From Gilliamella intestini (GTDB lineage Bacteria; Pseudomonadota; Gammaproteobacteria; Enterobacterales; Orbaceae): a DNA stretch of 46,484 nt. A program made the translations under genes and the position numbers. Shown here piece after piece: positions 12,915 through 45,933 of this stretch. The stretch covers positions 1 through 46,484 of the forward strand of contig NZ_FMBA01000018.1 in assembly GCF_900094935.1 (NCBI RefSeq). The letters are read 5' to 3'. The notes beneath the pieces were generated by a model, which ran no database searches, had not been told where the DNA came from, and was given only the letters and a program-made list of their open reading frames with translations. The stretch's first letter is position 1. The number at the start of each line of letters is the position of its first letter.

Positions 12915-13113
12915 TGTAGAAGTTTTTCGCGTTGTTTACTGTAATTTGAGAAATTACTGTTATAAAAAACAAAATTAAAACTCTATCACATAAAAGCGAT
13001 AGGGCTCTGATAAAATAAACAAAAATAACCGTTACTAATTTGGTTAAACGCTTTATGGGTTTTTAGCGAATTATTTTAACTATAAAGTGTAAACAAGTCG
13101 GCGTTCTCCTATA
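12915..13113 (+). mobile_element. IS481-derived miniature element, copy A
   Basis: The left end (TGTAG at 12915, then GCGTTGTTTACTGTAATTTG) and the right end (AAAGTGTAAACAAGTCGGCG, ending CCTATA at 13113) are inverted versions of one another. Both resemble the terminal repeat of the IS481 transposase remnant at 20473. The last 70 bases align with the 3' end of that remnant, while the middle lacks a transposase ORF. I read it as an internally deleted, non-autonomous copy of about 199 bp. Hairpins occur inside: GTAATTT/AAATTAC and CTCTATC/GATAGGG. No clear target duplication. It fills nearly half of the ygfZ-ilvI divergent promoter region. The remaining 12768-12914 shows nothing recognisable. 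Confidence 0.7.
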
Positions 13114-13203
13114 ACTTAGCTAATTGACTTTATTGATTTTTATTACAAGTTGATGCAAAATGACTCACTATATAATAAATCAATAACATTGGAGGCAACA
13201 ACC

Positions 13204-14922
13204 ATGGTGAAGCTGTCAGGTGCAGAGATGGTTATTCAATCTTTGATTGACCAAGGAGTAAAACAGATATTTGGTTATCCCGGTGGTAGTGTTCTTGATA
13301 TTTATGATGCAATTCATACACTAGGTGGAATTGAACATATTTTAGTTCGCCATGAACAAGCTGCAGTACATATGGCTGATGGTTATGCAAGAGCAACGGG
13401 CGATGTGGGCGTGGTTTTAGTTACATCAGGTCCAGGTGCAACTAACACTATTACAGGTATTGCAACCGCTTATATGGATTCGGTACCGTTAATAATATTA
13501 TCTGGGCAGGTTGCTAGTAATTTAATTGGCAATGATGCATTTCAAGAGTGTGATATGGTTGGTATTTCACGTCCAATTGTAAAACACAGTTTTTTAGTCA
13601 AAGACAGCAAAGACATACCTGAAACCATCAAAAAAGCGTTTTATATTGCCTCAACTGGTCGGCCTGGTCCTGTCGTTATTGATTTACCTAAAGACATTGT
13701 GAATCCTGCCAACAAATATAATTACCATTATCCAAAATCAGTGACTATGCGCTCTTACAACCCAACTATACAAGGGCATAAAGGGCAAATTAAAAAAGCG
13801 TTAACCACTTTATTAACAGCTAAAAAGCCTGTTTTGTGTATCGGTGGTGGGGTGATTGCGGCAAATGCCAGTGATGTAATTAAAAAATTTGCTGAAAAAT
13901 TAAATTTGCCAGTAACGTCAACACTAATGGGAATTAGTGCCTTTCCTGGTACTGACAAACATTACCTTGGCATGGTTGGTATGCATGGTGTTTATGAAGC
14001 CAATGTAGCTATGCATAATGCTGATGTTATTTTGGCTATAGGGGCAAGGTTTGATGATAGAACAACAAATAATGTTGAAAAATATTGCCCAAAAGCTAAA
14101 ATCATTCATATTGATATCGACCCAACCTCAATATCAAAAACCATTATGGCAAGTATCCCAGTTGTGGGTGATGCTAAAATAGTGGTTGAAACAATGTTAT
14201 CTCAAATTGATGAGCTAAATGTAACGCGTGATTTAGATGCATTAGTTGATTGGTGGAAGCAAATTGAGCATTGGCGAGCTCGTCACTGTTTAGCGTATAG
14301 CCATGAAGGTGAAAGCATCAAACCTCAAGAAGCGGTTGAAGTATTGTATAAATTAACGAAAGGCGATGCATTTGTAGCAACCGATGTTGGCCAGCACCAA
14401 ATGTTTACAGCGCTTTATTACCCATTTGATAAGCCACGTCATTTTATTACCTCCGGAGGGCTTGGCACAATGGGATTTGGATTGCCAGCAGCGCTTGGAG
14501 TTAAATTGGCGTTCCCTAAAAAAACTGTAGTTTGTGTAACGGGCGATGGCAGTATCCAAATGAATATTCAAGAGTTATCAACCGCATTGCAATATGACTT
14601 ACCTGTGCTTGTTTTAAATTTAAATAATCGTTTTTTAGGTATGGTTAAGCAATGGCAAGATATGATTTATGCAGGCAGGCATTCTAGCTCTTATATGGAA
14701 TCACTCCCCGATTTTGCCAAGATTGCCGAAGCCTATGGTCATGTTGGAATGGTAATTACTAAACGTGAAGAACTAGAACCAAAACTCAAACAAGCCTTAG
14801 CCATTAAAAACCGCTTAGTTTTTGTTGATGTTATGACCGATGCTACTGAACATGTTTACCCAATGCAAGTTCGTGGTGGTGCAATGAACGAAATGTGGCT
14901 TAGCAAAACGGAGAGAACCTAA
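13204..14922 (+). CDS. ilvI: acetolactate synthase III, catalytic subunit
   Basis: 572 residues from the chosen start (E. coli IlvI 574). The upstream ATG at 13150 is rejected because GGAGG at 13191-13195 sits just before 13204 and the protein then opens [14 protein letters not shown] like E. coli IlvI (MEMLSGAEMV). [17 protein letters not shown] holds the catalytic Glu; [15 protein letters not shown], then GDGSIQMN with [12 protein letters not shown], is the ThDP/Mg site; FDDRTTNN contacts FAD. It condenses pyruvate (or pyruvate plus 2-oxobutyrate) in valine/leucine/isoleucine synthesis. The stop overlaps the ilvH start. No leader peptide was found. Confidence 0.96.
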
Positions 14923-15416
14923 TGCGTTATATCTTATCAATTTTAACCGAAAACGAACCGGGCGCATTGTCACGAATTATCGGCTTGTTTTCGCAACGTG
15001 GTTTTAATATCGAAACTATCACCACTGCGCAGACTGAAGATCCTACCATGCACCGCATGACAATACAGACTAGTGGTGACGAACACGTCCTTGAACAGAT
15101 CCAAAAACAGCTACATAAGCTAGTTAATGTTTACCGCGTACATGATTTAACCGAAGGACCTCATGTTGAGCGCGAAATTATGCTAGTTAAAGTCGCTGCA
15201 AAAGGATCTGATGCTCGTGATGAAGTTAAACGTTGCGCTGATATTTTTAGAGGATCAATTGTAGATGTAACAGCAACACATTACATCGTACAATTATCGG
15301 GTACTAGCGAAAAACTAGACTCATTTTTAGCCTTGATACGTGAAACTTGCAACATTGTTGAAACCGTCCGTTCTGGCATTATTGGTTTATCGCGTAGTGA
15401 AAAAACAGTTAAATAG
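14922..15416 (+). CDS. ilvH: acetolactate synthase III, regulatory subunit
   Basis: 164 residues (E. coli 163). N-terminal ACT domain: RYILSILTENEPGALSRIIGLFSQRGFNIETIT, with the Gly/Asn positions that bind valine; a C-terminal ALS-SS domain follows (HVEREIMLVKV, IFRGSIVDVT, VRSGIIGLSRSEK). It gives feedback inhibition by valine and full activity to IlvI. TAATG overlap with ilvI. A decayed second copy of its last 55 bases lies at 21356. Confidence 0.96.
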   Translation: MRYILSILTENEPGALSRIIGLFSQRGFNIETITTAQTEDPTMHRMTIQTSGDEHVLEQIQKQLHKLVNVYRVHDLTEGPHVEREIMLVKVAAKGSDARDEVKRCADIFRGSIVDVTATHYIVQLSGTSEKLDSFLALIRETCNIVETVRSGIIGLSRSEKTVK

Positions 15417-15572: not shown

Positions 15573-17750
15573 ATGGAGTTTTATTGGTTATTTAAAGTTT
15601 TTTTGATAGGTCTTGCTTTATTCTCTTGGATTAGCTATAGGTCAGAAAGACATCAAAATAAACAAAATTTAAATGATATTATTAATGAACGCATTTCAAT
15701 AAGAAAATTAACAGAAGACGAATTTCAACTTCTACAGCCTTATCTAGATAATAAATGGTTAGTATTCCCTTATAAATATCAATCTTCTTTAATTGATTTA
15801 GAGGTATCAAAGTTAGCAGGAAATTGTGTCCGCCATAGTTTATACACTAATACTGAAGAAACATCTTTTTATTATGAGATTGGGGGGATTGAACTCTTTT
15901 TTCCATATAACATGTATCGCTATATTACAGCTTTTAACGTTGTAGAAGTCGTTTTTACTAAAAAATATGCATTTGTCGTTAAAATCAATGATTATGATAT
16001 AAAAACAGTTGCAGATTCTCAAGACGGAGTCATATACTCAGAACTCGATGAACCTTGGCTATACGAACAATCTCTTGATCTTGAAACTTTAGAAGATGAT
16101 GAGCTAAGTAGTGGCAAAGCAGCGAAAATAAAATCAGAAACTGATAACAAAATTAACTATGTTCAATTGTTAGAGCGAGAAGAAACATCATTAGAATCAA
16201 AAAATAGAAACAAAAAAACTAATGGTATATTATCAGCGTTTTTTTTGGTATCAATGACAGTATCTTTCCTGATGTATTGGTATTTGAATAATTCAGCCAT
16301 TCTTTTTTTAGTCATTTTTAGTTTTATTTTTTTTATTCTATTTTATTGGTATCAGCCAAAATCTAAATACGATTTATATAAAGTAAATTGCATTAAAGGA
16401 TTAATTAATAATAAAAAAACTAATAAAAAAGAAGTTACCATAGGTAAAAACTATATTTTAAAAGTTCCGCATTATTGGTTGCCGTTTTTGCCTGAAAAAT
16501 CGTTTATTCCAGCTAACATGGATGTAACAGTAGATGATAGAAAGTTAATTCGCTATGAAAACACGCTTTCAATTAACCAAGAAATTGAACAATTTGGGCC
16601 ACCAAAATTTGTTAAACGTAATTTAATACTCTTTATTACTGGAATTATTTTATCTGCTGTTGTCTATTTTCAAACAAATATTGTTGGTAATGCGTTATTA
16701 GCTTATCGGATTTTCAATCAAAATGTAATATTTTGGAAACTAGAAGATGAATCAGTCTTAAAAAACAGCCCAATTCAAAAAGGTGATCTGGTTAACATAC
16801 AAATGCGTAATGCATCATGTGATGTCAATGAAAAGAGTAATGAAAAAGGATGCCATACATTATTTATCAACGATCAACCTATTGAAAATAACCACGTAGT
16901 ATCAATGGCGGATCAAATGAAAAGCTTGTTTGATAACAATTTTATTGATACTCATATCGATCGTGATGTTATGAGAGTTCAGCAATATCAAGACAGATTG
17001 AATGAAATGTATAAACAATATGATAGGCAAGCATCAATCTATAGCATGAATATCAAAAGCCTTTATACAAAACTAAAAAATATAGGAAAAATTGTTACTA
17101 CTTTAGATAAAGCTTGCAACGTTTTTGAATTGGATTGTCATAACGTTAGAAAAGAATTATCTATATTTTATAATAGTTCTAATTGGCAAGAAATAGTTAA
17201 AAATGCTGAAAAGAATCCAAATTATAATGAGGTGGTTGATAACAAATTTGTATCTAGGCTTGATAGCCTAATTTCAACATTAAAGAAAGATATATTAGTA
17301 AAAATAAAGGATAAAGTTTCAAATTATCAGCATCAAAAATCAAGCCTAAGAATTGATTTATTTAATTATAGCTACAAAGACATAAGCACTCTAGATCGTG
17401 TAAATAATGGAAATCTTCAACAAGATTCATTATTAGAATTAAAGTTAAATCATTATTATGATGTTCTATTGGCCAAAGCAGGAACAATTAATATTATTGG
17501 ATTGGTTAAAGACATTTATTATCAAGATAACAATACAATATCAGGTTTAAAGGTTGATGCAAATTATTGTTACAGTATGAATTTAAATGATCTATTTTCA
17601 TTAACATCACCAGTTTTAATAAGCCTTGTTATTTTTAGTGTTACTAGCTTAATCTCATTCTTTAATGGCATAATAATGTGTTATAAATTAATTGCAAATC
17701 GTCGACGACAAACAGAAATCATTAAATTTTATAAAAATAGAATAATCTAA
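15573..17750 (+). CDS. IgaA/UmoB-family membrane protein, paralogue 1
   Basis: 725 residues, close to enterobacterial IgaA (about 710). Predicted layout copies IgaA: TM1 3-22; cytoplasmic domain 23-218 with KLTEDEFQLLQPYL; TM2 219-237 and TM3 242-260; cytoplasmic domain 261-348 ending EIEQFGPPKF; TM4 349-367; large periplasmic domain 368-679; TM5 680-705. The periplasmic Cys pairs C416/C427 and C515/C522 correspond in order to the four Cys of Salmonella IgaA, and SSNWQEIVKNAEKNP matches its NSKDWNALVKRANAG. IgaA restrains the Rcs phosphorelay through RcsD. This copy is the most canonical of the three. It has its own RBS (AAGGAAAA) and a strong terminator behind it. No rcs gene is in the window, so the target is inferred. 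Confidence 0.85.
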   Translation: MEFYWLFKVFLIGLALFSWISYRSERHQNKQNLNDIINERISIRKLTEDEFQLLQPYLDNKWLVFPYKYQSSLIDLEVSKLAGNCVRHSLYTNTEETSFYYEIGGIELFFPYNMYRYITAFNVVEVVFTKKYAFVVKINDYDIKTVADSQDGVIYSELDEPWLYEQSLDLETLEDDELSSGKAAKIKSETDNKINYVQLLEREETSLESKNRNKKTNGILSAFFLVSMTVSFLMYWYLNNSAILFLVIFSFIFFILFYWYQPKSKYDLYKVNCIKGLINNKKTNKKEVTIGKNYILKVPHYWLPFLPEKSFIPANMDVTVDDRKLIRYENTLSINQEIEQFGPPKFVKRNLILFITGIILSAVVYFQTNIVGNALLAYRIFNQNVIFWKLEDESVLKNSPIQKGDLVNIQMRNASCDVNEKSNEKGCHTLFINDQPIENNHVVSMADQMKSLFDNNFIDTHIDRDVMRVQQYQDRLNEMYKQYDRQASIYSMNIKSLYTKLKNIGKIVTTLDKACNVFELDCHNVRKELSIFYNSSNWQEIVKNAEKNPNYNEVVDNKFVSRLDSLISTLKKDILVKIKDKVSNYQHQKSSLRIDLFNYSYKDISTLDRVNNGNLQQDSLLELKLNHYYDVLLAKAGTINIIGLVKDIYYQDNNTISGLKVDANYCYSMNLNDLFSLTSPVLISLVIFSVTSLISFFNGIIMCYKLIANRRRQTEIIKFYKNRII

Positions 17751-17856: not shown

Positions 17857-20457
17857 ATGGATACAATTTCCACTTTAAAAATCATTTTACTCTTAATTAC
17901 GTTATTTAGTGCCTTAATTGGTCTAAGTAAATGGTCTGATTTTAAATCTGAACGTAAGCAAAACAAAAAAAATCTAGAAGAGTTTATTAATAATCGCAAA
18001 ACAACAAGAAGATTAACAGCAGAAGAACTTGAGCTTATAACACCTTACCTTACCAATAAAAAATTAGTTAAACCTTATAAATTAAAATCATCATTAATTG
18101 ACTCCGAAGTATCAATTATTGAGGGTTCTTGTATTCGCCACAGTTTTTATACCAATTCAGAAGAAACGGATTTTTATTATGAGATAGATGGTATCGAAGC
18201 CCTATTTCCTTATAATTTACAGCTATTTTCTTTAAGTCATAATGTTGCGGAAGTGGTTTTTACCTCGAATTATGCGATAGTCGTTAGTTTTAATGGCTAT
18301 CGTTTAGACGCGTTAGCGGATTTTGGGGCTACACCTAATAAAAAAACTAACATATATGATTCATCATCATTTTTTTCCGACTTAACTCGGCCAATCAAAG
18401 AAGAAGAACAGCAACTACTTGAACCTTATCTTAACAACCCAACCATGGTTGGACATTATGAACATAGCTCCACGTTAGTTAGTTCTGATGTGTCAATTAT
18501 TGTTGGTTCATGTATTGCTATTAATCATTCTAATAATAGTAATGATCCTATCTATACTTATCAAATTGGTGATATTGTTGTCTTTTTCCCTTATGACATG
18601 GAACGATATGTTGAAGATATTAACATCGTGCAAGTTGTCGTTACTGAACACTATGCATTAGTAGTCAAAATCAATCAATATGACTTAAAAACAGCAAAAC
18701 AAAAACAAGAACAACTGCAGCAACAACGGCAAAAGCAACAAAATAAAAAAACTTATTTTGAATCCGCTTGGAAAAGCAAAAAAGAAGAAATCTTACCGGA
18801 ACAAAACCTAGCCGATGCCAATGACAGCATAATGAAATTTGATGAAGAATATATTGAAATAGAACCTATAATTAGTTATAAAATAGTTGAACAACGTCAA
18901 GAAACACCGATAGAATCTTCAAATAGAAACAAAAAAAACAATGGCATATTGGCCGCTGTTTTTTTAGCTTTAACTGTTATACTCTTTATTAAGTATTGGT
19001 ACACTTTTGACTCATGGTTACCGCTATTTATTGGGCTCAGCTTGCTTGTATCTATTGTCTTTTACCTGCGTAAGGCACAATCTTGTACCTTAGAGGTTAA
19101 CCGCATAAAAACAAAAATTCACTATAAAGACGACATAAAAAACAGAATACTCGTTGGCGATGATCGAACTTTAAAATATCCCGCCTATTGGACTCCTTTT
19201 TTACCTTATAAATCTGATGAAGATGTTGATATCGATGTCATTGTAAAAAAAGAAAAACTACTTCGTTATGGCAATTTATTATCCATCAGCCGTGAAATTG
19301 AAGAATTTGGCCCACCCAAATTTATAATGCGCAACCTTATTCTATTTGTTACTGCGTTTATTTTATCTATTATGACTTTCAAACTAGTTGATATCACCAG
19401 CAACTTGCAACTAGCTACTTATCCTTTAGATAGCAATGTTTCTGTTTGGGAGATTAAAGATGCCAAGTCTTTAAAAAACAGCCCAATCAAAAAAGGCGAT
19501 TTAATTAATATAAAACTTAAAGGTGCATCATGTAATGCAGAAAGCGATATGTATTTGGAAGATTGTGATAAAGTGTTTATCAACCAACAAATTGCGAGCA
19601 ATATTGAAGAAGCCAAAGCGAATAGTAATTTAGTCGACGCATTATTTGACGGCGACTTAATTAAAACAGTACGAGACAACGACGTAAAACAGCTTGAAAA
19701 AGAGCTAAATAGCGAAAAAAACAAAAAAAACAGCAGCTACAACAAGGAATACCAACCCGGCAGTGTGTTAAGCAAACTGTTACATGTTGATCGCTTAATT
19801 CTAACTGTTGACCAAAGCTGCCAATTGTTAGAAGAAGACAAATGCAAACGAATAAAACTAATTCTAATCAAGACTATCAAACTAACCGACTCTAAGCTAG
19901 AGCAATGGCCACAACTAGTTGAATATAGCAAACAACACCATAACTACGACAAAATTATCGTAGCGAGTACGCTTGAATACCTAGAGACACAAATCAGCAA
20001 CTTACAAAAAAGTATGTCATTTTACTACCTAGAAAAAGCGAACACAGCTCTAACTAATTATCAACAATCACCACAAAGTGTCAGCTTAGCGTTAGCAAAT
20101 GCAAATGAGATCAAAATCAACTATCCAGATGAAGACAAAGATATAGTCCTATTACAAACATACTATAACGCCTTATCAGGAAAGGGCGGAAAGGTCAATG
20201 TTTCAGGTTTAGTGACAGAGGTTGATTACCAAAATGACAACACCGTTTCGAATCTAACTATCGATGATGACCTGCTATATCGCATCTATCAACAGCGGCT
20301 ATTATCACTAACATCACCTGTATTTATTGGTGTTGTTATTTTTATTATTACAGCTTTAATAGCATTGTCTAATGGTATAATAATTTGCTGCAAACTTATT
20401 GCCAATAATCAACGAAAAAACAACATTATCAAAGCATATGAAAATAGAATCAAATAA
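17857..20457 (+). CDS. IgaA/UmoB-family membrane protein, paralogue 2, with duplicated N-terminal cytoplasmic domain
   Basis: 866 residues, about 140 longer than paralogue 1. The extra length is a second copy of the first cytoplasmic domain. Residues 52-150 (RLTAEELELITPYL ... SIIEGSCIRHSFY ... DFYYEIDGIEALFPYN ... YAIVVSFNGY) are repeated at 178-276 (RPIKEEEQQLLEPYL ... SIIVGSCIAINHS ... IYTYQIGDIVVFFPYD ... YALVVKINQY). A Gln/Lys-rich linker (280-298) follows. The remainder is standard: TM2/TM3 at about 363-403, EIEEFGPPKF, TM4 493-511, periplasmic Cys pairs C559/C570 and C655/C663, TM5 820-845. RBS AAGGAA at 17841. Function inferred as IgaA-like; whether it controls Rcs is unknown. Confidence 0.83.
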   Translation: MDTISTLKIILLLITLFSALIGLSKWSDFKSERKQNKKNLEEFINNRKTTRRLTAEELELITPYLTNKKLVKPYKLKSSLIDSEVSIIEGSCIRHSFYTNSEETDFYYEIDGIEALFPYNLQLFSLSHNVAEVVFTSNYAIVVSFNGYRLDALADFGATPNKKTNIYDSSSFFSDLTRPIKEEEQQLLEPYLNNPTMVGHYEHSSTLVSSDVSIIVGSCIAINHSNNSNDPIYTYQIGDIVVFFPYDMERYVEDINIVQVVVTEHYALVVKINQYDLKTAKQKQEQLQQQRQKQQNKKTYFESAWKSKKEEILPEQNLADANDSIMKFDEEYIEIEPIISYKIVEQRQETPIESSNRNKKNNGILAAVFLALTVILFIKYWYTFDSWLPLFIGLSLLVSIVFYLRKAQSCTLEVNRIKTKIHYKDDIKNRILVGDDRTLKYPAYWTPFLPYKSDEDVDIDVIVKKEKLLRYGNLLSISREIEEFGPPKFIMRNLILFVTAFILSIMTFKLVDITSNLQLATYPLDSNVSVWEIKDAKSLKNSPIKKGDLINIKLKGASCNAESDMYLEDCDKVFINQQIASNIEEAKANSNLVDALFDGDLIKTVRDNDVKQLEKELNSEKNKKNSSYNKEYQPGSVLSKLLHVDRLILTVDQSCQLLEEDKCKRIKLILIKTIKLTDSKLEQWPQLVEYSKQHHNYDKIIVASTLEYLETQISNLQKSMSFYYLEKANTALTNYQQSPQSVSLALANANEIKINYPDEDKDIVLLQTYYNALSGKGGKVNVSGLVTEVDYQNDNTVSNLTIDDDLLYRIYQQRLLSLTSPVFIGVVIFIITALIALSNGIIICCKLIANNQRKNNIIKAYENRIK

Positions 20458-20472
20458 TTACTATATTTAATT

Positions 20473-20755
20473 TGTAGGAAAACGCCGAGTTGTTTACACT
20501 TTATGATTAAAATAATCCTCTAAAAACTCATAAGGCGTTTTTCCAAAAATCGCTTTATGCGGTTTAACGGTATTATAAAAATTAATAAAGCGTTTAAGCT
20601 TTTGTTTTCTATCTATTGAATCGCTAAATATATGCTGATTATGCCACATCGCAATTCAAAGTTTGTATCACTCTTTCGGCTTTCTCATCGGTTTGTGGGC
20701 AGGCGGGATAGGTACATTTTTGCTTGATGCGCCGATTATCACGCAGTTTATCTAA
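20473..20755 (-). mobile_element. IS481-family transposase remnant with right terminal repeat
   Basis: On the minus strand the frame from about 20752 gives DKLRDNRRIKQKCT, then CPQTDEKAERVIQTL, the IS481 integrase-core motif (usually PQTNGKAERFIQTL). A frameshift near 20645 moves to another frame with NQHIFSDS, RKQKLKRFINFYNTVKPHKA and GKTPYEFLEDYF, ending at 20493-20495. The terminal repeat TGTAGGAAAACGCCGAG begins at 20473. The N-terminal half is missing and sequence above about 20760 no longer resembles the family. Dead element; parent type of the two mini-elements. Confidence 0.8.
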
Positions 20756-20941
20756 ACAAATCAATACAGTATAATTTTTGTTAAAAAGTTTCAGGAGTGC
20801 ACTACGTTTATGTATAAAAAACTTAAAAATCAAATAGATACTATCTAGTAAATATTCTCTAGTTTGCTGCTTCGTTTGATTTTTAAGTAACGGCAAACCG
20901 TAGGTATCAGTCTGTCGCATTTTACTCAGAGAGGTTTTTTT

Positions 20942-21166
20942 ATCGCCTTCGATCTTTATCAGTATTATTTAAATATACATTCTGTCAGTAATTTTCAAAA
21001 AAACCTTGAAGCTGAGCTTTTTGGAACTACTGATCGAGTTTATTACAGTGCTGTAAATGAGCTAATTAAGTTAGATATTGTTGAAAAAAGTGAAGGAAAA
21101 TTAGAAATCAAAAATATAAATAAACTTAAAGAATTTATTAAATGTAAGGGCAAAATTCCAGTTTAA
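20942..21166 (+). pseudogene. C-terminal fragment of a Crp/Fnr-like regulator (tentative)
   Basis: An open frame without a start codon reads NLEAELFGTTDRVYYSAVNE, then LIKLDIVEKSEGKLEIKNIN, and stops at 21164-21166. The pattern (helix, 'GTT.R' turn, 'L..L...GIIE...G.I.I.D...L') is that of the winged-helix end of Crp/Fnr-type regulators such as YeiL. The N-terminal effector domain and start are lost; an IS481 remnant lies just upstream. Remaining sequence of the 20458-21497 gap is described in the neighbouring entries. Confidence 0.4.
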
Positions 21167-21204
21167 ATATCTAATACAAACAGACACAATTTGCTAACTC
21201 ATAC

Positions 21205-21360
21205 AATTAAAACATCAATTAAAATTAATTATTCAATTGTGAGATAAGGTTGATTCTTGTTTGTTGTATTGGTTTTTATGTTTTAAAAATTGATGCAACA
21301 TTGTTCTTATAAATTAATAATGGTCTGTATATAATGGTCACGAATTATATTTTTAGTTAA
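21205..21360 (+). pseudogene. decayed duplicate of the pyrG promoter region and first seven codons
   Basis: TTAAAATTAATTATTCAATT and TAATGGTCTG followed by the start ATG at 21334 repeat the region upstream of the real pyrG (23285-23464). The encoded start MVTNYIF is identical to PyrG residues 1-7, then the frame becomes Ser-stop. The duplicated promoter keeps a -35 (TTGTGA at 21237) and 17-base spacing, but its -10 reads TTTGTT in place of TATACT, so it is probably dead. Confidence 0.85.
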
Positions 21361-21411
21361 AATTGTTCGTTCTGGTATTATCGGTTTTCTCGCAGTGAGA
21401 AAACAGTAAAT
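21356..21411 (+). pseudogene. decayed duplicate of the ilvH 3' end
   Basis: CGTTCTGGTATTATCGGTTT and AAAACAGTAAA repeat the end of ilvH (15358-15416). The translation gives VRSGIIGF, identical through residue 7 of IlvH's VRSGIIGLSRSEK, then a one-base shift breaks the frame. It abuts the pyrG fragment directly, with GTT shared at the joint. Confidence 0.85.
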
Positions 21412-21497
21412 CATTAATTTTCGTGGTTAAGAAATTAAGACTGAATTTTTTCAGTTAGTTATTATTATAAAATAAGATTTATAAGGAATAAGTTACA

Positions 21498-23210
21498 ATG
21501 CAAATATTAGGTTTGGTTGTCTTAATTCAATTTATTATTTCATTTATTTTTTATCCTATAAAAAAGTATAGAAGTACTAAGTATAAAAAAAAGCTAATGG
21601 CAGGTAGTTCGGTTAACAACCTCAAATCTATTAGAATGTTAACTGAAGAGGAAAGAAAAAGTGTAGAAAGCTATTTATCGATAACATGTGACCAATCATC
21701 AGGGAAAAAAAAGTCATCATTAGTTTCTCGAGAAGTGATGTTAATATCCGGTGAGTGTATTAAACAAACTGAATTTTCGCATTCTGAAAACACTTATTCC
21801 TATAAAATCCATAATATTGATGTTGTATTTCCTTTCAAAATGGATCGTTATCTTAGTGATTATAACGAAGTTGAAATTGCGCTTACGCAAAATTTCGCTA
21901 TCGCTGTTAAGTTAAATGATCACAAAATAGGTTCAGCATTATATGCTACCTATTTGGCAGATGAAAAAAATGAAAAACAAAGTTCGGTATATTGGCTGAG
22001 CGGCGCTTCAAAATTCTCAAAAGGCGAAAACTTAGATGAAAATATTAAACACACTGTAAGTCCACATCCTAAACTGAGTGAAAAATTGGGTTACGAAATT
22101 TTATCAGTTCGAAAAGAAACATCGCAAGAATCAGCTTCCCGTAATAAATTAAATCGAGGGATACTCACGGCATTTTTTTGTTTTTTTGTAGTAAGCTATT
22201 TTAATCGTTTTTGGGATACAAAAGAGTTGAACGATCTGTTTTGGTTTGGAGTGAATTTTCTGGCTGCTATTTACTTTTATTTTCGTAAACCAAAATCTAA
22301 AACAAAAGTGCAATTTATTAATCAAGTAAGAGGAAAAATAAATAAAAAAATTGTTAAATCCAATGAGATTAAAATTGGTCATGATTTGATATTAAAGTAT
22401 CCTAAAAATTGGCAATCATTTATTCCTGAAAATAGCACTTTTGATGTTGATTTGGATGTTGATATTGACAGTAAAAAAATTGTCCGTTATGGCTACGACA
22501 TGTCGGTTAGTAAAGAGGTTGAACAATTTGGTCCACCAAAATTTTGGGGGCGTAATTTATGGCTTTTTTTATTTGGCATGTTCTATCTTTATGCTGTCAA
22601 TTATCAAGCAAAAGTGAGTGATAATTTCTCATTTGTTTATCATCAATTTAATCACGATTCAAAACGTTGGTTTTTTGATGATGCATCAAAATTAGTCACT
22701 AGTAATATTAAGTCGGGTGATGTAGTAAAATTAAATTTTTTAGACGTGTCATTGACATGTGAAGTATCTGTTAAAAATAAAGCCGATAGATGTATTCAAG
22801 CATTAATTCACAGTGCAACTACCGATACCTCTTTTCATTTAGCCAATTCCACAAGATATTTTGTTTTACATGGTATAAATGAAAAGATAAGTTCTCAATC
22901 GGGTGAAAGTGTAGTTCCACAATCTGACAAAAACTTTCATACAGATCATATCGTGGTCACGATGTCGGGATTCGTTTCAAATGTTGATTATGACACTAAT
23001 CATACCATTTCAACATTAACCATAAATACGCAAGAGTTATACCAAAAAGATATAAGCGAAAATCTATTGCCAATTTGTTTAAACCTGCTGTTATTTTTGC
23101 TTTTAGCTTCAGTGACCATTTTTAACGGTATTATGTTCTTGTTGAAACTGATTCAGAATCGACTTCGTAACAATAGAATTAAAAAGTTATACGCTAATGG
23201 TATAATTTAG
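21498..23210 (+). CDS. IgaA/UmoB-family membrane protein, paralogue 3, short periplasmic domain
   Basis: 570 residues. It keeps TM1 (4-22), cytoplasmic domain 1 (MLTEEERKSVESYL, closest of the three to E. coli IgaA LPEERSAVENYL), the SVRKETSQESASRN segment, TM2/TM3 (220-262), domain 2 (DLILKYPKNWQSFIP ... EVEQFGPPKF), TM4 (353-369) and TM5 (523-548). The periplasmic domain is only about 150 residues against 310 in paralogue 1: the first Cys pair (C421/C432) remains, but the segment with the second pair and SNW motif is gone, before resuming at MSGFVSNVDYDTNHTISTL. There is no frameshift at the deletion and the ends are intact, so it looks functional. RBS AAGGAA upstream; the pyrG promoter follows. 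Confidence 0.83.
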   Translation: MQILGLVVLIQFIISFIFYPIKKYRSTKYKKKLMAGSSVNNLKSIRMLTEEERKSVESYLSITCDQSSGKKKSSLVSREVMLISGECIKQTEFSHSENTYSYKIHNIDVVFPFKMDRYLSDYNEVEIALTQNFAIAVKLNDHKIGSALYATYLADEKNEKQSSVYWLSGASKFSKGENLDENIKHTVSPHPKLSEKLGYEILSVRKETSQESASRNKLNRGILTAFFCFFVVSYFNRFWDTKELNDLFWFGVNFLAAIYFYFRKPKSKTKVQFINQVRGKINKKIVKSNEIKIGHDLILKYPKNWQSFIPENSTFDVDLDVDIDSKKIVRYGYDMSVSKEVEQFGPPKFWGRNLWLFLFGMFYLYAVNYQAKVSDNFSFVYHQFNHDSKRWFFDDASKLVTSNIKSGDVVKLNFLDVSLTCEVSVKNKADRCIQALIHSATTDTSFHLANSTRYFVLHGINEKISSQSGESVVPQSDKNFHTDHIVVTMSGFVSNVDYDTNHTISTLTINTQELYQKDISENLLPICLNLLLFLLLASVTIFNGIMFLLKLIQNRLRNNRIKKLYANGII

Positions 23211-23319
23211 ATTGATTTTCGCGATTATTGATATTATTTAATAAAAGTTCATTAGCTAAACTAGTTATAAGTTTGGCTAATATGCTTGTTGAAAACATCC
23301 GTTAAAATTAATTATTCAA

Positions 23320-23348
23320 TTGTTAGGTAAGGCAGATTCTGTTATACT
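23320..23348 (+). promoter_or_regulatory. pyrG promoter
   Basis: -35 TTGTTA (23320-23325), a 17-base spacer and -10 TATACT (23343-23348), about 95 bases before the pyrG ATG. The same stretch is present in decayed form at 21237-21265. Confidence 0.65.
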
Positions 23349-23422
23349 AGTTTCCCGTCTGATTCATCATATATTGCATTGGTTTTTTATCATTTAGCCT
23401 TAGTGTAATATTATTCTATTAA

Positions 23423-25081
<1,659 letters not shown>

Positions 25082-45533: not shown

Positions 45534-45770
45534 CAGTTCTTTTAACCTGCTAGAATGAACACTATAAAAAACTGCCTGTCAAAATGCGATTTCTATCTAG
45601 AACATGCTATTTATAACCTCAAAAAACGCATTTAACATTAAATAACATCACTCCTCTGAATATAACACACTAATAAAAGTGTAATTTTTTAGGTTAAATT
45701 TTTGTAAAAAATATTCAGGAGTCTATACCGTCTGGAGATTAAAAAATGAAAAGAGTGATATGAACTTTAA

Positions 45771-45933
45771 ATTGAAATATGGCATAATCAACAAATATTT
45801 AGTGATACAAAAAAGACAACAAATACTTAAATGTTTTATTAATTTTTATAATACCGCTAAACTGCATAAAATGATTTTAGGGAAAACGCCTTATGCGTTT
45901 TTAGAGGATCAGTCAGCCCTTGGTCTTAACTAA
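45771..45933 (+). mobile_element. IS481-family transposase 3' fragment
   Basis: The frame reads NQQIFSDTKKRQQILKCFIN, FYNTAKLHKMILGKTPYAFLEDQ and stops at 45931-45933. It is the same protein end as the minus-strand remnant at 20473 (NQHIFSDS, FINFYNTVKPHKA, GKTPYEFLEDYF). No terminal repeat follows, and no N-terminal part exists. Dead fragment. Confidence 0.8.

Follow-up and report, generated by a model that had tools for sequence, protein, structure and literature searches.

What did the third of three IgaA-like genes between ilvH and pyrG grow out of? In the stretch of Gilliamella intestini DNA analyzed here (contig NZ_FMBA01000018.1, 46,484 nt, hereafter the window; its genome is G000), a short segment ahead of this gene joins what resembles the beginning of pyrG to what resembles the end of ilvH. 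The original prediction explained this order by the tandem duplication of a unit of the array itself. The genes of this locus lie on the + strand. Intact ilvH, the left anchor gene (14922-15416, identified by Pfam/NCBIfam), is followed by iga1 (15573-17750), iga2 (17857-20457) and iga3 (21498-23210), and then by intact pyrG (23444-25081). The three iga genes matched the IgaA profile PF07095 with 74.4, 102.8 and 80.4 bits, respectively (curated cut-off 25), and iga1 and iga2 are approximately 33% identical to iga3 over long matches. From these profile matches and the gene tree described below, we assign iga1 and iga2 to a probable resident haplotype and iga3 to a probable added one. The N-terminal domain of iga2 is apparently doubled, as residues 1-155 and residues 178 onward both align with the start of iga1.

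The segment at 21209-21354 consists of a decayed pyrG promoter (21209-21333) and seven codons identical to those of pyrG, beginning with an ATG at 21334 (21334-21354), and it directly abuts an ilvH 3' end (21355-21412) that differs from the live ilvH by small indels. AGT TAA can be read in frame after the seven pyrG codons. Local alignment of 21180-21420 with the upstream region and head of pyrG scored 105, against a maximum of 33 in 500 dinucleotide shuffles, and alignment of 21300-21500 with ilvH scored 57 (shuffle maximum 35). The similarity to both intact genes is therefore above shuffle expectation, and the reading of this segment as a pyrG promoter and seven codons joined to the end of ilvH, ahead of the third paralogue, was borne out. 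We also scanned 302 overlapping 300-nt blocks on both strands (604 scores, the surroundings of the real parent being excluded): the junction was the top block for both parents, with scores of 102 for pyrG and 57 for ilvH, and the next best blocks elsewhere reached 34 and 28. In its own genome, 21200-21500 had two matches, namely itself and the real pyrG head. A tail-to-head junction of an ilvH...pyrG unit is thus present, with the order expected of tandem ilvH...pyrG units. The original prediction also proposed a GTT common to both parents at the joint, as a sign of recombination at short homology. Immediately before GTT the fossil has an A, which agrees with ilvH of G004 (ATAGTTG), the nearest parent, and differs from pyrG (TTTTTG), so the nearest parents' sequences do not support this microhomology. 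The sequence overlap at the present joint is 0-1 nt, and this joint may itself be secondary, through an inserted A or later trimming.

The fossil promoter has decayed at a position that is otherwise conserved. When the fossil was aligned with the live pyrG promoters of 19 relatives and the window, TATACT was present in 18 and replaced by TAAACT in G013, and the fossil alone was missing the approximately 27 nt that include this position. By the sigma-70 consensus, we read TATACT as the -10 box and TTGTTA as the -35 box; in the window's own live promoter, which lies in the iga3-pyrG spacer (23211-23443, collinear with G004), they occupy 23343-23348 and 23320-23325 and are 17 nt apart. In the promoter tree, the end branch of the fossil measured 0.17 against a median of 0.033, and one live promoter, that of G007, had a longer branch (0.24). 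Judged from its sequence, the fossil pyrG head is dead.

We then compared each arm of the junction with the relatives. The fossil ilvH tail matched G004 best (54/57, vs 47/57 for the window's own ilvH), and so did the spacer carried with it (21413-21497, + strand), which matched at 77/83 the G004 spacer between the real ilvH and an iga3-type gene. In a tree of 16 ilvH ends (13 chosen ilvH ends and three fossils), one side of a split supported at 100/100 comprised the fossils together with those real ilvH ends that precede an iga3-type gene. The other side held the window's own ilvH and the remaining ends, which precede iga1 (a broken iga1 in G005). Forcing the fossil tail and spacer together with the own ilvH gave a p-AU of 1e-53, although p values in this tree are inflated by unlike spacers that are perhaps not all homologous. 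The only ilvH match in G004 (locus L017) contains a stop codon close to the end of the gene. Second ilvH tails, each with the stretch that follows it, were also seen directly after ilvH in G003 (L021, 12087-12191) and in G015 and G035 (L023 and L022). These are tandem repeats of approximately 165 nt located right at ilvH, and we rejected them as instances of the same junction.

The pyrG-head arm has other kin. Its six top alignment scores were obtained with G019, G020, G025, G021, G008 and G009 (89.8-92.5% identity), a group, hereafter the sister clade, that was defined only after these identities were known. The fossil was identical to G019 at 136/148 positions and to G020 at 136/147, vs 125/146 (85.6%) for the window's own pyrG. 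Many other promoters also exceeded 85.6%, and those of G010 and G033 reached approximately 90%, but with more gaps and lower scores. In the promoter tree (33 rows, after setting aside seven distant or poorly alignable promoters), the fossil fell in one clade with the six sister-clade promoters (support 99/94). Constraining it to group with G000, G014 and G024 was rejected (p-AU 0.0013), and less strongly so when G023 and G004 were added to that group (0.025).

Upstream of the fossil, the + strand at 20942-21160 encodes a remnant of the last ~74 residues of a regulator with a cNMP-binding domain, assigned through the Pfam match of the G020 protein. The remnant shares 78% amino acid identity with residues 156-229 of this protein, and at the DNA level 82% with G020 vs 71-76% with the other loci found. 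The intact regulator gene stands directly 5' of pyrG in G020. According to Pfam, a block of nucleoside phosphorylase, MFS transporter and regulator genes, with Tsx in addition in G020, occurs 5' of pyrG in G020 (L014) and G003 (L021), and reading frames of similar size are located 5' of pyrG in G006, G015, G017, G034 and G035. Between iga2 and the junction, a remnant resembling a repeat or insertion sequence spans approximately 20461-20930. Parts of it recur in the window at 13039-13118 and 45750-45909 and in several relatives, and its reading frame at 20639-20920 had no Pfam match.

The IgaA-like genes themselves were compared as well. The loci contained 50 reading frames of this type, and we built a quick tree of 44 of them (six fragments shorter than 400 aa were omitted); it carried long-branch warnings between groups, and the point we use is the make-up of the iga3 clade. 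This clade has nine members, of which those of G000, G014 and G024 stand later in their arrays, and the others belong to G004, G006, G010, G026, G027 and G033. In all six of the latter genomes, the gene is the first after ilvH, starting at most 400 nt from the ilvH end. The ilvH tail 5' of the window's iga3 can therefore be seen as an old neighbor carried along. The enclosed paralogues are not each other's closest relatives, since iga3 is placed apart from iga1 and iga2, and among the iga1-type and iga2-type genes in the tree, those of G000, G014, G024 and G023 stand beside those of G020 and G025, as expected of a resident pair. The body of iga3 is nearer to G026 and G027 (90-91%) than to G004 (83%). 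Together, these alignments and trees show the arms to be a pyrG head and an ilvH tail with affinities to different relatives.

We consider it probable that two diverged haplotypes of the variable ilvH-pyrG locus, ilvH-iga1-iga2-pyrG and ilvH-iga3-pyrG, were concatenated by horizontal transfer with illegitimate joining at one end, and that this segment is the resulting recombination scar. The recipient chromosome would have carried ilvH-iga1-iga2-...-regulator gene-pyrG, and the donor haplotype would have had the order ilvH-iga3-pyrG, which G004 shows. At one end, homologous exchange would have taken place inside pyrG, as suggested by a change in similarity at ~24.0-24.65 kb; at the other, the donor ilvH tail would have been attached, with hardly any homology or none, within the beginning of the resident pyrG. 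Of the resident pyrG head only a stump would have remained, and the live gene would now begin with the incoming pyrG start. The stump would have decayed afterwards, losing its -10 box, and the joint was perhaps trimmed later. Such a course would match homology-facilitated illegitimate recombination (HFIR). The arm affinities and the iga3 clade indicate a gain of DNA from another lineage; which arm represents the gain, that a single event was responsible, and by which route the DNA entered are points that we infer.

The live pyrG is consistent with this proposal, being a mosaic. Its first ~0.6 kb is 95-97% identical to G004, and the sister-clade genomes reach 80-90% over 23.6-24.04 kb. From ~24.04 kb, G019, of the sister clade, is nearer (93-99%), and beyond 24.64 kb G004 falls to 84-86% and G020 stands at 91-93%. 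The change of similarity thus lies between about 24.0 and 24.65 kb, where other exchanges overlap it. The window is collinear with G004 all the way from the ilvH tail of the fossil to pyrG, iga3 included. For G026, G027 and G006, similarity is lost where iga3 ends.

The proposed fusion of haplotypes would hold for either direction of transfer. An unlikely alternative is the reverse course, in which an ilvH-iga3-pyrG recipient took up a sister-clade ilvH-iga1-iga2-...-pyrG head through ilvIH homology, and this DNA was joined illegitimately to the recipient's own ilvH tail. G023 has the same G004-like pyrG start without iga3, so this type of pyrG could be native to the clade. Moreover, the ilvI of G004 is 90-96% identical to that of G000 over 13.3-14.2 kb, outside the proposed fragment, so the G000 clade may have passed DNA to G004, which could have been the receiver. 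What weighs against the reverse course is that iga1 and iga2 group as the backbone genes do, which fits a resident pair: left of ilvI, G000 is 79-89% identical to G020 and G025 and 68-77% to G004, a grouping taken from identity tables rather than a tree, with G023 having no data left of ilvI. In addition, iga3, at 90-91% to G026 and G027, looks like a newcomer, the left backbone genes of G027 being 67-82% identical to those of G000.

Duplication of the locus's own ilvH-tail...igaX...pyrG-head unit, whose copies then diverged or were overwritten, appears very unlikely. It would leave exactly the order pyrG head followed by ilvH tail, and if the outer ilvH and pyrG were afterwards replaced by homologous recombination, the original match could be masked. 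Such a duplication predicts arms nearest to the own flanks and an iga3 nearest to iga1 and iga2; neither was seen, and self-duplication is therefore not supported. Both arms group away from their own flanks, and iga3 is at ~33% to iga1 and iga2 while the arms still share 82-86% of aligned bases with those flanks. The tree of the igaA-like genes, proposed with the original prediction as a check, likewise places the kin of iga3 directly after ilvH in other lineages and not with iga1 or iga2. Hence, of the predicted tandem-unit junction, its position between two ilvH-tail...pyrG-head units and its marking of the step at which iga3 joined the array stand, and the duplication of the unit from itself falls. 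The suggestion that the junction dates this expansion falls as well: the own flanks are not the parents, so the distance from fossil to flank dates nothing, and we rejected dating on that basis.

A circular molecule (ilvH tail-iga3-pyrG head) integrated through one crossover in the pyrG start would yield the same gene order, and the integration of circularized linear DNA by a single crossover is among the events reported for E. coli (PMC3240628). We give this route little credence. It predicts a switch of parent in the promoter or first codons, and the G004-like stretch extends ~0.6 kb into pyrG, although later exchanges could have produced this stretch, which weakens the objection. An assembly chimera of two strains is scarcely credible, for while the exact joint is known from this assembly only, the fossil is decayed (lost -10 box, indels) rather than a copy of a live gene, contamination stands at 0.02, and an ilvH tail 5' of iga3 is also found in the separate assemblies G014 and G024.

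The relatives also bear on the proposed scar between two haplotypes. The exact joint of pyrG head and ilvH tail was present in this assembly alone among the relatives compared. At E 1e-4, no further pyrG-head fossil was detected in 40 loci from 38 other genomes, 25 of which had the whole ilvH-pyrG interval in one locus (G032 and the upstream stretches of G039 and G041-G043 were outside this search). The junction was thus not found in genomes with a single igaA-like gene, an occurrence that had been named beforehand as speaking against the duplication. G014 and G024 have the same order of iga2, ilvH tail, iga3 and pyrG, but their joint consists of ~20 nt after iga2 followed by an ilvH tail that reaches ~34 nt further upstream, with no pyrG head. 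The one joint cannot have given rise to the other in either direction, which implies either a longer ancestral joint and two deletions or two events. The G004-like pyrG start of G023, in the absence of iga3, likewise calls for a loss or a separate exchange. The pyrG genes of G014 and G024 are 85-88% identical to that of G000 over 24.34-24.79 kb, and these differences within the trio suggest that exchanges continued afterwards and blurred the right end.

PF07095 matches were found in 27 of the 44 genomes of the family. RcsF was detected in 0/44 genomes and the RcsC domain in 0/44, with a positive E. coli control, making Rcs control an unlikely role for these IgaA-like genes. Mobile-element or defense carriage was considered and rejected: PADLOC gave no match for the iga1, iga2 and iga3 proteins, and for iga1 there was no match among phages and a single weak one among plasmids. 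No solved structure was matched by the sequence of iga1, and our literature search returned no paper joining IgaA with Gilliamella or with Orbaceae. The ilvH-pyrG interval is short and empty in G011, G012 and G031; other intervals contain between one and three IgaA-like genes, in some cases together with the nucleoside phosphorylase/MFS/regulator block or a TonB-dependent receptor. Broken IgaA-like copies in G014, G024 and G005 suggest from their sequence that these genes are dispensable. As a speculative and rather doubtful extension, the ilvH-pyrG interval of Gilliamella might be an array site where Rcs-free IgaA-like membrane proteins are gathered from other lineages by repeated allele addition, like polymorphic immunity or surface-recognition genes, the scar being one addition with both parental types identifiable. 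The scar in any case draws attention to an array of IgaA-like genes in bacteria where neither RcsF nor an RcsC domain was detected. As a natural scar, it allows each of the haplotypes joined in it to be assigned to relatives alive today, and it illustrates that a paralogue array can grow by concatenation of foreign alleles and yet resemble a tandem duplication. If junctions of this kind were scored as self-duplications, the growth of gene families would be assigned the wrong date and the wrong place.

Comparable processes have been described elsewhere. In Streptococcus pneumoniae, incoming DNA creates tandem units in merodiploids made by transformation (PMC3784515), but those described there depend on repeats that donor and host have in common, and the duplicated part of the host's own chromosome measures ~100-900 kb. 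Closer in taxonomy, paired homologous and illegitimate recombination was proposed for the C-terminal displacement of Rhs/VgrG in bee-gut Orbaceae (PMC8125069), the same bacterial group as here, although that account concerns toxins. HFIR, as outlined in PMC3240628 and PMC5361080, combines homology at one end with non-homologous joining at the other and results in a net gain of foreign DNA. A defining trait of HFIR is RecA dependence, with the event observed during transformation or conjugation. The scar reported here would share the scheme of one homologous and one non-homologous end, which in our case is deduced from an old two-allele scar of one locus with a joint that was perhaps trimmed. 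A close parallel is found in the T6SS immunity-gene arrays of Vibrio cholerae, for which sequential displacement was described, HFIR proposed and duplication rejected (PMC5361080), the last by the argument, as presented there, that we use for the iga3 junction. In both cases, genes were apparently added from other strains, paralogues of the same genome do not cluster, and the leftover end of a displaced gene can mark the step. They differ in that no effector gene was recognized here and that the stump consists of the start of one housekeeping gene, pyrG, and the tail of a second, ilvH. The process was already known from the Vibrio arrays; its setting here, an IgaA-like locus in genomes where RcsF and RcsC were not detected, is new.
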